Of a stretch of DNA of 64,000 nucleotides, positions 14,538-23,746 are shown piece by piece. Every line of letters starts with the position of its first letter. The stretch's first letter is position 1. This DNA comes from Deltaproteobacteria bacterium (GTDB taxonomy: Bacteria; Desulfobacterota; Syntrophobacteria; Syntrophobacterales; Thermodesulforhabdaceae). A program made the position numbers and the translations under genes. The stretch lies in contig JAFDGW010000003.1 of the NCBI GenBank assembly GCA_019309115.1, positions 1 through 64,000 of the forward strand, in the 5' to 3' direction. The notes under the pieces are model-generated. The model saw only the letters and a program-made list of their open reading frames with translations. It had not been told where the DNA came from and did no database searches.

Positions 14538-14816
14538 TCAGTCTTTTTGTCTTATAAGCTGAATCTTTACCTGATTCTGAGCATTAGGACAGACCCATTC
14601 CATCTTATCGGGGTCTCCCATAGGAAAGGTGCCACCAAACTGGAGCATGCAAATCCAGTTAAAAATGTTGTGATAGAAGTACCCGCAGAAATCTCCGCAC
14701 TTATGAATGCTTAATTCAAATTCGTCACCAACCTGCATTCCAATGGTACACTTGCCTTTTACATCAACAACCTTGGCTATCACCTTGTGCCCAATTGACG
14801 GGTAACTAACAGCCAT
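14538..14816 (-). CDS. TIGR04076 family protein
   Basis: Small 92-aa cytoplasmic protein of the TIGR04076 family, whose function is not established. It is Cys-rich (KGKC, IHKCGDFC, WIC and a late VCPN), which suggests metal or cluster binding; this is an inference. SD AAGGAGGG stands seven bases before ATG 14816. It is monocistronic between cobD and the pan operon leader. Confidence 0.8.
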   Translation of the reverse strand: MAVSYPSIGHKVIAKVVDVKGKCTIGMQVGDEFELSIHKCGDFCGYFYHNIFNWICMLQFGGTFPMGDPDKMEWVCPNAQNQVKIQLIRQKD

Positions 14817-14947: not shown

Positions 14948-14977
14948 TTGACATATCTGGCGTTGCTTTGTTATTGT
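14948..14977 (+). promoter_or_regulatory. Probable sigma-70 promoter of the pan leader
   Basis: TTGACA at 14948-14953 matches the -35 consensus fully. TATTGT at 14972-14977 (18-bp spacer) matches the -10 at four of six positions. A start near 14984 would produce a leader of about 107 nt ending at the terminator at 15057-15091. Confidence 0.55.
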
Positions 14978-14983
14978 TTCTTT

Positions 14984-15091
14984 GAAAATTTAGTTTGGTT
15001 TAGTTGAACCGCTTGGATCCCATGGTTCCGGGACCGAGACGGGAAAGTAGGCAGCAAAGCCTTCCGCCTTTCGGTCGCGGAAGGCTTTTTT
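14984..15091 (+). ncRNA. Candidate regulatory leader RNA / small RNA upstream of panC
   Basis: Between a good -35 element and a strong intrinsic terminator lies about 107 nt without a reading frame. GGATCCC (15015-15021) can pair with GGGACC (15030-15035) leaving one bulged A. Alternatively GACCGA (15032-15037) pairs perfectly with TCGGTC (15071-15076), the terminator loop. The two pairings exclude each other, as in attenuators and riboswitches. Rfam has a motif named pan upstream of pantothenate genes; whether this is one needs a covariance-model test. The 5' end is estimated from the promoter. Confidence 0.5.
15057..15091 (+). terminator. Intrinsic terminator just before panC
   Basis: GCCTTCCGC (15059-15067) pairs with GCGGAAGGC (15077-15085), a perfect 9-bp stem with a 9-nt loop, extended by A-U pairs and followed by six T residues (15086-15091). 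It ends 18 bases before the panC ATG and six before its Shine-Dalgarno, so it sits in the 5' UTR of the pan operon and could attenuate it. Confidence 0.88.
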
Positions 15092-15109
15092 CATTTGAAG
15101 GAGGAGCAG

Positions 15110-15961
15110 ATGAACGTTGTAGCTACCGTTAAGGACATGCAGGCAAGGGCCGATCAGTGGAGAAGAGACGGAAAAAAGATAGCTTTCGTGCCCACCATGG
15201 GCTATCTACACGACGGACACCTTGCCCTCATGAAAATGGCACGCCGGCATGGCGACATACTGGTGATCAGCATTTTTGTTAACCCTACTCAGTTCGGCCC
15301 TCAGGAAGATTTTGAGCGCTATCCAAGAGACCTTCCGCGGGACCTAAAGCTTGCCGAGTCGGTGGGCGTTGATGTGGTTTTTACTCCTTCGGCCGAAGAA
15401 ATGTATCCTCAAAATTATCAAACTTACGTTGAGGTAACAGAAGTTTCCAGGCCTTTGTGTGGTGCAAGGAGGCCAGGGCACTTTCGAGGTGTCACCACTG
15501 TGGTTGCCAAACTTTTCAATATCGTAAAACCCCATGTGGCCGTTTTTGGTGAAAAGGATTACCAGCAGCTGGTTGTTATACGTCGTATGGTGCAAGACTT
15601 GAACATGGATGTGGAAGTGCTTGGCCATCCCACTGTTCGTGAGAAGGACGGATTGGCAATGAGCAGCCGTAATGTGTATCTGTCTTCCGACGAACGTAAG
15701 GTGGCGCTTAGATTGTATCAGTCGTTGATGAAGGCTCAGGAACTGGTCAGTAACGGGATAACTTCGGCTGCTGAGGTCTTACAGGAAGTTAGGTCTATTC
15801 TAGCTCCCGATGACAGGCTTGTGATTGATTATGCTGAGATCAGGGATCCCGAAACCCTAGAAGAGCTTGATGAAATAAACGGCCCAGCTCTGCTTGCCCT
15901 TGCGGCTTTTGTGGGCAAAGCCCGGCTTATTGATAACATCGTGCTGACTCCCAGATCCTGA
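15110..15961 (+). CDS. panC: Pantothenate synthetase
   Basis: ATP-dependent condensation of pantoate with beta-alanine in the cytoplasm. HIGH-type signature PTMGYLHDGHLAL (ATP binding), FVNPTQFGPQEDF, and the KMSKS-like GLAMSSRN segment are all present. 283 aa is the standard length. ATG 15110 is preceded by AAGGAGGAG at 15097-15105; an in-frame TTG at 15095 is not needed. It follows an intrinsic terminator and leads a long operon starting with panD. panB is not in the window. Confidence 0.96.
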   Translation: MNVVATVKDMQARADQWRRDGKKIAFVPTMGYLHDGHLALMKMARRHGDILVISIFVNPTQFGPQEDFERYPRDLPRDLKLAESVGVDVVFTPSAEEMYPQNYQTYVEVTEVSRPLCGARRPGHFRGVTTVVAKLFNIVKPHVAVFGEKDYQQLVVIRRMVQDLNMDVEVLGHPTVREKDGLAMSSRNVYLSSDERKVALRLYQSLMKAQELVSNGITSAAEVLQEVRSILAPDDRLVIDYAEIRDPETLEELDEINGPALLALAAFVGKARLIDNIVLTPRS

Positions 15962-15989: not shown

Positions 15990-16340
15990 ATGACCAGGAC
16001 TATGATGAAATCTAAACTTCACAGGGCTCAGGTTACCGATGCTAACCTTGATTACGAAGGTAGCCTTACAATTGATGAATTACTTATGAAAGCAGCTGAC
16101 ATCTTACCTTACGAACAGGTTCATGTTTACAATGTATCTAATGGTGCTCGATTTGAAACCTACGCTATTCCTGGACCTGCTGGGAAAGGCGATATCTGCT
16201 TGAATGGAGCCGCGGCGAGGATGGGGGCAAAAGGGGACTTGATAATAATCGTTACTTATGCTCAGTATAGCGACTCCGAATTGGCAGAATATGAACCGAA
16301 GGTGGTATTGCTCGGACCGGGGAACAAGCCCAAAGAATGA
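15990..16340 (+). CDS. panD: Aspartate 1-decarboxylase (pyruvoyl)
   Basis: Makes beta-alanine from aspartate, the co-substrate of PanC. The proenzyme self-cleaves at Gly24-Ser25 in YEGSLTID, forming the pyruvoyl group. The central [25 protein letters not shown] is family-typical. 116 aa is slightly short-normal. ATG 15990 has GGAGGGAAAG upstream. The stop overlaps the next start (ATGA). Confidence 0.95.
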
Positions 16341-21574: not shown

Positions 21575-23746
21575 ATGATAGAAGTTTTTCACAATCTAGT
21601 TAACTGGGTTCTGGCATGGTCAAAGACACCTTATGCTGAGATTGCCCTTGGAGTGCTGGCGTTTGCAGAGTCTTCTTTCTTTCCCGTTCCCCCGGATGTT
21701 TTGCTCATAACCATGTGTATTGCGGCTCCTTACAACTCACTGCGCTTTGCCGTTATATGCACCATTGGTTCGGTCTTGGGCGGGTTTTTTGGTTACGGGA
21801 TTGGTCATTATGGGGGAAGGCCGCTACTTGTGAAATTCGTTTCTCGCAGGAAAAGAGAGCTTGTTGAAGATTACTACCAGCGTTACGACGTATGGGCCGT
21901 TGGGATTGCTGCGTTTACGCCCATTCCTTACAAGGTGTTTACCATAAGTGCAGGTGCTTTTCTGCTGGATTTAAAAAGATTTGCGGTGGCGTCGTTAATT
22001 GGGCGAGGCGGACGGTTTTTTCTGATCGGCACGCTTTTTTACTTTTTTGGAGCTCCTATAGGCGAATGGATCAAGGAGTACATAAACTTGCTGTCTGTTC
22101 TTTTTGTGGTGCTGCTTGTTGGAGGTTTTGCCCTGTTGAGCAGGATTGGCGGTGGCAAGGGGAAACAAATGTTACTTCTTTTCCTGGTTATTTTCAGCCC
22201 TGTTTTTGCAGGTGCCGATGAACCTGTGCCTGGAGACTGGCTCATTATCCATATGGGGGCAGAACCCGGTACACTCAATCCCATAACGGCAACTGATGTG
22301 TACGCTTCAAGGGTGAACGACTACATCTATGAAACACTAGTAAAAAGGGATGAACGAACCCTTAAGCTGGTGCCCCAGCTGGCTACTCACTGGGATATTT
22401 CTGAGGATCACCTTCGTTACAGGTTTTACTTGAGAAAAGGGGTTAAATGGCACGATGGCCATCCTTTTACGGCGCATGATGTCGTGTTCAGTTTTGAAAG
22501 AATTCGCGATCCTAAAGTTGATGCAGCTCATTTGCGAAATTATTACCAGGACATAATCAACGTTAAAGCTCTGGACGATTACACTGTTGAGTTTTTCTAC
22601 CGCCGTCCTTATTTTCTGGCACTTGAGTTTTGCGGAGGCATTCCGATTGTGCCGGCACACCTCTTTAAACCCGGCGATGATTTCAACGCCCACCCCATAG
22701 GCCGACACCCAATAGGCACCGGACCTTATCGGTTTGCGAAGTGGGAGACGGGCAAGGAAATTGTGCTTGTTCGCAATGATGATTACTGGGGGAGCAAACC
22801 ATATCTAAAGAAGATAGTTTTCAAATTTATAACGGATTCTACCGTAGCACTGCAAGTGTTGAAGCAGGGCGGTCTTGATCTTATGGGCTTGAGGCCGATT
22901 CAGTGGGTTTATCAGACTCGAGGTAAGCGATTTCACGCTCACTTTCGTAAACTTAGCTATTACCTTCCTCAATACAGCTACATTGGATGGAACATGCGAA
23001 AACCATGGTTCCGGGACCGACGCGTTCGGCAGGCTATGACCATGTTGATTGACCGTAAAACTATACTGGAAAAGCTTCTTTTCGGTCTCGGTACGATTGT
23101 TACCGGGCCGTTTTATGTCAATAGCCCTGATTACGATCGCTCAGTAAGGCCTTATCCTTACGATCCCAACAGGGCCGTCCAGCTTCTTGAGGAAGCTGGA
23201 TGGGTTGATCATGATGGAGATGGAATTCGCGATAAAGATGGTATGCCTTTTCGTTTCGAGTTCCTCATATCCGCCGGTTCTAGATTTGCCGAACAACTGG
23301 CAACGATTCTTCAGGAAAGCTTGAGAGATGTGGGCATCGAGATGCGTATAAGGAAACTCGAATGGGCCACCTTTATACAGAAGATTCAGTCTCGGGACTT
23401 TGATGCTTGCACTTTGGGATGGAGCCTAGGCTGGGAGTCGGATCCTTATCAAGTGTGGCATTCGTCACAGGCTGATAAGGGATCGAATTTTGTTGGTTTT
23501 GTCAATAATGAAGCTGATCGGATAATTGAAGAGGCAAGGCGCGAATTCGACGCGGAAAAGCGACATGCCCTTTACCATCGTTTTCACGAGATTGTGCACT
23601 ACGAACAGCCATACACCTTTCTGTTCACCATGAAAGCTCTGGTAGCCGTTGATAGAAGGTTTAGAAACGTCCGTGTCTATCCTATGGGTCTTGATCCGAA
23701 GGAATGGTGGGTACCTCTGAGCTTACAAAAGTACAGGGAGCCGTAA
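21575..23746 (+). CDS. DedA-family membrane domain fused in frame to a peptide-binding protein (SBP_bac_5)
   Basis: One 723-aa reading frame with two parts. Residues about 1-195 are a DedA/SNARE-associated membrane protein (SSFFPVPPDVLL, FFGYGIGHYGG, AAFTPIPYKVFTISAGAF). Residues about 199-723 are an ABC transporter solute-binding protein family 5 (WHDGHPFTAHDVVFSFER, GTGPYRFAKW, RVRQAMTMLIDR). The junction GGGKGKQ then a short hydrophobic run ending FAGADEP looks like a signal peptide, and an internal ATG at 22169 has AAGGGG upstream. So either a true fusion, a polyprotein cut by signal peptidase, or two proteins via internal initiation. dppB/dppC follow directly. Confidence 0.85.
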   Translation: MIEVFHNLVNWVLAWSKTPYAEIALGVLAFAESSFFPVPPDVLLITMCIAAPYNSLRFAVICTIGSVLGGFFGYGIGHYGGRPLLVKFVSRRKRELVEDYYQRYDVWAVGIAAFTPIPYKVFTISAGAFLLDLKRFAVASLIGRGGRFFLIGTLFYFFGAPIGEWIKEYINLLSVLFVVLLVGGFALLSRIGGGKGKQMLLLFLVIFSPVFAGADEPVPGDWLIIHMGAEPGTLNPITATDVYASRVNDYIYETLVKRDERTLKLVPQLATHWDISEDHLRYRFYLRKGVKWHDGHPFTAHDVVFSFERIRDPKVDAAHLRNYYQDIINVKALDDYTVEFFYRRPYFLALEFCGGIPIVPAHLFKPGDDFNAHPIGRHPIGTGPYRFAKWETGKEIVLVRNDDYWGSKPYLKKIVFKFITDSTVALQVLKQGGLDLMGLRPIQWVYQTRGKRFHAHFRKLSYYLPQYSYIGWNMRKPWFRDRRVRQAMTMLIDRKTILEKLLFGLGTIVTGPFYVNSPDYDRSVRPYPYDPNRAVQLLEEAGWVDHDGDGIRDKDGMPFRFEFLISAGSRFAEQLATILQESLRDVGIEMRIRKLEWATFIQKIQSRDFDACTLGWSLGWESDPYQVWHSSQADKGSNFVGFVNNEADRIIEEARREFDAEKRHALYHRFHEIVHYEQPYTFLFTMKALVAVDRRFRNVRVYPMGLDPKEWWVPLSLQKYREP

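Follow-up and report, generated by a model that had tools for sequence, protein, structure and literature searches.

A single-hairpin pan RNA with an attenuator-like layout before panC-panD, and related operons that may hold a replacement for PanB

The panC-panD locus and its leader

The window, by which we mean the whole 64,000-nucleotide stretch of DNA analysed here, carries on its forward strand panC, encoding a pantoate--beta-alanine ligase of 283 amino acids (15110-15961; TIGR00018, 351.8 bits against a cut-off of 212.75), and after it panD, encoding an aspartate 1-decarboxylase of 116 amino acids (15990-16340; TIGR00223, 147.6 bits against a cut-off of 106). The gene order between 15110 and 19548 is panC, panD, a DUF502 gene, S-adenosylmethionine synthetase and adenosylhomocysteinase, an order that is partly repeated in relatives at loci L171, L176, L178 and L164. 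A small TIGR04076 protein (54.8 bits, cut-off 33) is encoded on the reverse strand at 14538-14816, divergent from the panC leader.

By inspection of the sequence, the leader extends from a -35 hexamer to the panC ATG at 15110. The first-pass annotation had claimed a perfect -35, and TTGACA is indeed present at 14948-14953 of the forward strand. It is followed after a spacer of 18 nucleotides by the -10 hexamer TATTGT (14972-14977) with a TG in front, and an RNA start is predicted near 14984. Taken by itself the promoter is no more than chance would give, since a scan of 4 kb returned 6 sites where 5.7 were expected; the same hexamer recurs before the hairpin described below in relatives. Of the 44 leaders, 28 have an exact TTGACA no more than 100 nt 5' of the hairpin, and in 11 of the 44 TTGAC is combined with a -10 hexamer, versus none of 161 control windows. 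The leader carries a ribosome binding site, AGGAGG, at 15099-15104, and the fold of 14970-15109 has a z-score of -3.27, an energy equally low in 1 of 200 shuffles.

A pan RNA hairpin and the genes that follow it

At 15009-15042 of the forward strand lies a 34-nt hairpin that is identified as the pan motif (RF01749) by a covariance-model match, by conservation and by covariation. Its 5' strand (15009-15020) and 3' strand (15031-15042) enclose a 10-nt loop (15021-15030) and form 11 pairs, 5' CCG-CTTGG-A-TCC / GGA-CCGAG-A-CGG, with bulged A residues at 15017 and 15039 on opposite strands. It ends 67 nt 5' of the panC ATG and 56 nt before the ribosome site. The stem with one bulged A that had been proposed earlier, GGATCCC/GGGACC, captured the inner stem correctly and overlooked the eight pairs outside it as well as the other bulge.

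Membership in the pan family, which the first-pass annotation had put forward as a guess, is borne out, although the curated score falls short at this site. RF01749 is the best Infernal match against Rfam (27.2 bits, E = 0.0059 for a 231-nt region) and, over the whole genome, the sole match at E ≤ 1 (E = 0.0151). The score lies below the Rfam gathering score of 36.2, and a search of the full window at gathering score returned no match. In our view the deficit stems from the 5' part of the model's 92 positions, which is variable and A/U-rich, the hairpin itself aligning in full. Of 20 related loci, comprising 17 from the phylum that bear a pan RNA and 3 PanC neighbourhoods from named genomes, 7 pass the gathering score, which was also reached in 1 of 59 relatives' genomes. 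With a model free of the window's own family, built from 38 of 44 aligned hits after four rows of that family and two duplicate rows had been dropped, 15009-15042 is the only match in the 64 kb (39.3 bits, E = 1.6e-11). The site is filed as a pan RNA; its hairpin is complete, the curated score being the one required test on which it falls short, and we regard it as a confirmed new member of this known family. Other Rfam matches in the small-region search (ctRNA_p42d, Phe_leader, PyrR, RAGATH-32 and others) were far under their cut-offs, and an 18-nt match to the leader at window positions 23003-23020, where there is no pan match, was taken as chance.

Alignment of upstream regions from relatives had been suggested as a check on the leader, with a lack of conservation as the outcome that would count against it, and the hairpin turned out to be conserved. 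The two-bulge hairpin is kept in all 44 hits from the 59 relatives' genomes, with 11 of 11 pairs in 43 and 10 in the remaining one, although related sequences in these counts are not independent. In the 44-hit alignment 99.8% of cells are paired, and 4 pairs have changed on both sides; none of 500 shuffles attains this covariation.

The genes behind the hairpin are equally consistent. The first gene after the 44 hits, the window's included, is panC in 23, panD in 10, phi (SIS domain) in 7, a DUF2520 gene in 2 and an HPS-RraA gene in 2, as we read them from the loci. A hairpin model, R1, has a match at E ≤ 0.01 in 193 of 394 genomes of the phylum, and all 67 hits inspected (27 returned as loci and 40 picked; 8 in the first set, 59 new) have a pantothenate-type gene first within 600 nt: PanB in 31, PanC in 28, PHI in 3, DUF2520 in 3 and PanD in 2. 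Among 80 PanC neighbourhoods of named genomes, R1 finds 24 hairpin places, some of them in Bacillota and Chloroflexota. The window's lineage stands near Syntrophobacteraceae: in G033, of the same order, PanB has coordinates identical to those in a Syntrophobacteraceae MAG, the genome of L052. A DUF2520/Rossmann-like gene stands behind the pan RNA, followed by panB or panD, at L034, L177, L299, L292, L295 and L106, and we consider it a candidate ketopantoate reductase.

The pan motif was described in 2010 (Weinberg et al., PMC2864571), the one paper on it relevant here, and in that description the hairpins are mostly, but not obligatorily, tandem. The window's RNA shares with the described pan RNAs the two bulged A residues, the conserved letters and a downstream panB, panC or panD gene; unlike most of them it is a single hairpin (PMC2864571). 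In the 111 leaders scanned for a tandem arrangement, a possible second copy was found in 2, both poor. The leader further differs from RF01749 in having a terminator and, in the window's near relatives, a terminator loop that complements the pan 3' strand, and the regulon in this phylum adds genes for DUF2520, phi and HPS-RraA.

Terminator, alternative pairing and possible attenuation

The strong terminator that had been noted before the panC ribosome site is present at 15056-15091, with a 12-pair hairpin at 15056-15088 (-19.3 kcal/mol on its own) and a T run at 15086-15091. The competing GACCGA/TCGGTC pairing reported with it is also real and extends to 8 pairs, between a predicted antiterminator strand within the pan 3' strand, GACCGAGA (15032-15039), and its predicted partner in the terminator loop, TTTCGGTC (15069-15076), both on the forward strand. 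In minimum-energy folds of the growing RNA, the pan hairpin is formed up to 15073, the antiterminator from 15076 to 15082, and the pan hairpin together with the terminator from 15085. Forced folds put the antiterminator ahead by 1.6, 3.7 and 2.9 kcal/mol at 15076, 15079 and 15082, an advantage of 1.6-3.7 kcal/mol that spans only a few nucleotides, and put pan hairpin plus terminator ahead by 4.6 kcal/mol at 15085 and 7.9 kcal/mol at 15090. Since the finished leader favours pan hairpin plus terminator, the default state may be OFF.

The coupling of hairpin and terminator is widespread. Terminators with a stability of at least -12 kcal/mol stand behind the hairpin in 36 of 44 near-relative leaders, within 120 nt, and in 47 of 59 further leaders, amounting to 83 of 103 across both sets. 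The alternative pairing is more restricted. Among the near relatives, 29 of 36 terminators contain a strong complement to the pan 3' strand, as do 10 of the 91 control terminators left after 12 of the original 103 had been dropped for adjoining a pan-like core; the registers differ between lineages, whereas complements to the pan 5' strand show no excess (3 of 36 versus about 24% of controls). In the 47 further leaders the complementarity is weak, 14 of 47 for the 3' strand versus 13 of 47 for the 5' strand, so the antiterminator was rejected as a general feature of pan leaders and is restricted to nearer kin. As far as leader sequences tell, the attenuator layout is general, and the predicted antiterminator of the window's type characterises the lineages close to it. 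Of two earlier suggestions, the attenuator-like layout of a leader of pantothenate genes holds, and the mutually exclusive pairing is supported among near relatives but does not extend across the whole phylum.

We consider it probable that this single-copy pan-motif RNA acts as a transcription attenuator of the panC-panD operon. Its hairpin would fold first. If an effector, either a metabolite of the pantothenate/CoA route or a protein, were to hold the hairpin, then the terminator at 15056-15091 would form and transcription would stop before panC. If the hairpin were left unheld, then 15032-15039 could pair with the emerging terminator loop at 15069-15076, and this antiterminator pairing would delay or prevent the terminator so that polymerase reads into panC-panD. 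Attenuation itself, its direction and an effector that reports pantothenate or CoA supply are all inferred; our expectation would be that the bound hairpin favours the terminator. Terminator-type riboswitches and protein-controlled attenuators place a sensor hairpin, a competing antiterminator and an intrinsic terminator before the ribosome site, and the layout predicted for the window's leader is the same, with the difference that its sensor is a short two-bulge stem. The leader is a clear single-hairpin, terminator-coupled example of the family, and the simplicity of its layout recommends it for work aimed at the effector of pan RNA.

Whether the effector would be a metabolite or a protein is, in our estimate, evenly balanced. 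On the protein reading the pan hairpin is not a riboswitch but the site of a putative RNA-binding regulator of pantothenate genes that steers the terminator, and the attenuation step would be the same as in the mechanism above. Protein binding was proposed in the 2010 description on the grounds of small and mostly tandem hairpins (PMC2864571). In keeping with it, the conserved element, just a bulged stem of 24 nt around a variable loop, is small for a metabolite pocket, whereas the single hairpin of the window and the rarity of any second copy (2 of 111 leaders, both poor) fit less well with that argument. Attenuation would play no part if the terminator were constitutive, or ended an upstream transcript, while the pan hairpin acted on RNA stability or translation. 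The fading of the complementarity between pan 3' strand and terminator beyond the near relatives is what such an arrangement would lead one to expect, and the stem of two relatives, described below, abuts the ribosome site without a terminator, so that translation control may exist in the family; but 83 of 103 leaders have a terminator behind the hairpin, and the window's hairpin stands 56 nt before its ribosome site, which together make this account improbable.

That the leader is no more than a chance hairpin beside an ordinary terminator could draw on the score below the Rfam gathering cut-off and on a promoter count equal to the shuffled expectation. We rule it out, leaving it scarcely any credence, because the hairpin is conserved before the same genes, shows covariation and is matched by the model free of the window's family. 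Attenuation by a pan RNA remains our preferred reading for the window. At L021 (G020) and L024 (G024), no terminator separates the pan stem from the HPS-RraA gene, whose ribosome site the stem directly adjoins; this suggests translation control in these two leaders.

HPS-RraA fusions in genomes without PanB

The regulon outweighs the leader in importance; PHI and/or HPS-RraA occupy the slot behind the pan RNA where PanB is missing. In the genomes of family f5, the pan RNA is followed by phi, an HPS-RraA fusion gene and panE, and in G020 and G024 it stands before the fusion alone. The phi product matches the NCBIfam 6-phospho-3-hexuloisomerase model (162 bits, cut-off 160) and the panE product the 2-dehydropantoate 2-reductase model (290 bits, cut-off 141). 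The fusion belongs with the bifunctional hexulose-6-phosphate synthase/ribonuclease regulator proteins (NF005442, cut-off 593), with 635 bits at L161 and 583, just under the cut-off, at L166. Proteins of this model are named for HPS activity and RNase regulation; the fusions here, in contrast, lie in pan RNA operons with phi, panE, DUF2520 or panD and occur only in PanB-less genomes.

Among the 59 relatives, the full fusion is present in 10 genomes, every one of which lacks PanB and has PanC, and 9 of which have PanD; PHI above cut-off is found in 8 genomes, all within these 10. PanB is present in 39 relatives, none of which has the full fusion, and 10 have neither. In the larger set, 394 genomes of the phylum with a completeness of 85% or more, 348 have PanB, 25 the fusion (E ≤ 1e-60, two matches being cut to about 300 residues), none both and 21 neither, so that the fusion occurs in 0 of 348 PanB-positive and 25 of 46 PanB-negative genomes; the absence of the 25 fusion genomes from the PanB list was checked by eye. 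Fisher tests of this exclusion give p = 3e-6 for the set of 59 and 3e-27 for the set of 394, values that overstate the case because the genomes are related. The fusion is present in at least six families (f3, f5, f7, f11, f22 and f55), and PHI and/or the fusion stand behind a pan RNA in five of these (f3, f5, f7, f11 and f55). Across both sets, 33 genomes carry the fusion; 25 have a pan hairpin on the fusion's own strand and upstream of it, with 23 of these hairpins preceding phi, and the stretches fetched around the fusion showed no pan hairpin in four f22 genomes nor in G046, G055, G129 and G407. Beyond the phylum, 50 named genomes from many phyla, which we chose from the 80 PanC loci, include 47 with PanB, 2 with the fusion, both without PanB, and 1 with neither. 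The two are a Chloroflexi MAG (L106), in which a pan RNA, a terminator-like hairpin, a DUF2520 gene, panD and the fusion follow one another, and Ca. Solincola (L124), whose fusion neighbourhood gave no pan hairpin.

We lean towards the view that the pan RNA marks a replacement of PanB, the ketopantoate hydroxymethyltransferase, in these operons, in which the fusion and PHI would provide a formaldehyde-based, folate-independent route to pantoate, possibly in methanogens too. PHI would convert fructose-6-phosphate to hexulose-6-phosphate, the HPS domain running in reverse would split this into ribulose-5-phosphate and formaldehyde, and the RraA-like aldolase domain would join formaldehyde to 2-ketoisovalerate to give ketopantoate, after which PanE or the DUF2520 protein, and then PanC, would complete the PanB-less route. 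HPS can run backwards, releasing formaldehyde, and PanB and RraA-like aldolases both use a metal and 2-oxoacid enolates. RraA-like relatives in the PDB include 4-carboxy-4-hydroxy-2-oxoadipate aldolase (3noj). The DMK..MD residues of the HPS half and the RD pair of the RraA-like half, which we take to be catalytic, are kept in 33 of 33 aligned proteins (31 from the 33 loci of the phylum and two from other phyla), a conservation that for DMK..MD is partly by construction, as a word of that motif served to select the proteins. That the fusion and PHI make ketopantoate from 2-ketoisovalerate and formaldehyde would be the most economical reading; a supply of formaldehyde or pentose by fusion and PHI for another enzyme would be a weaker one. 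In a control set of 14 genomes, compiled from printed names, PF02548 (PanB) had no match in Methanocaldococcus jannaschii, Methanosarcina acetivorans or Lactococcus lactis; all three have a match to TIGR03127. In the open-access literature we found nothing linking HPS or RraA to ketopantoate, pantoate or PanB.

If the fusion makes ketopantoate from formaldehyde, then a missing step in the synthesis of vitamin B5 and CoA is filled and the name "ribonuclease regulator" on the RraA-like domain is corrected. The origin of pantoate in PanB-less organisms, possibly including methanogens, would become testable. This lead concerns the relatives rather than the window, because the genome from which the window comes encodes PanB (C10:44450) and lacks the fusion.

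Two arrangements in the operons deserve mention. In G046, a pan hairpin near 4505076 (L163) precedes a seemingly truncated copy of phi in a partly masked stretch, and an intact phi-fusion-panE operon lies elsewhere (L185), with no pan hairpin in the fetched stretch. Operons of pan RNA, phi and fusion in PanB-less genomes were seen at L166 (G048), L167-L170, L173, L253, L256, L257, L259, L261-L271, L274 and L275; the f5 operons include panE, and L106 has DUF2520 and panD in place of phi.
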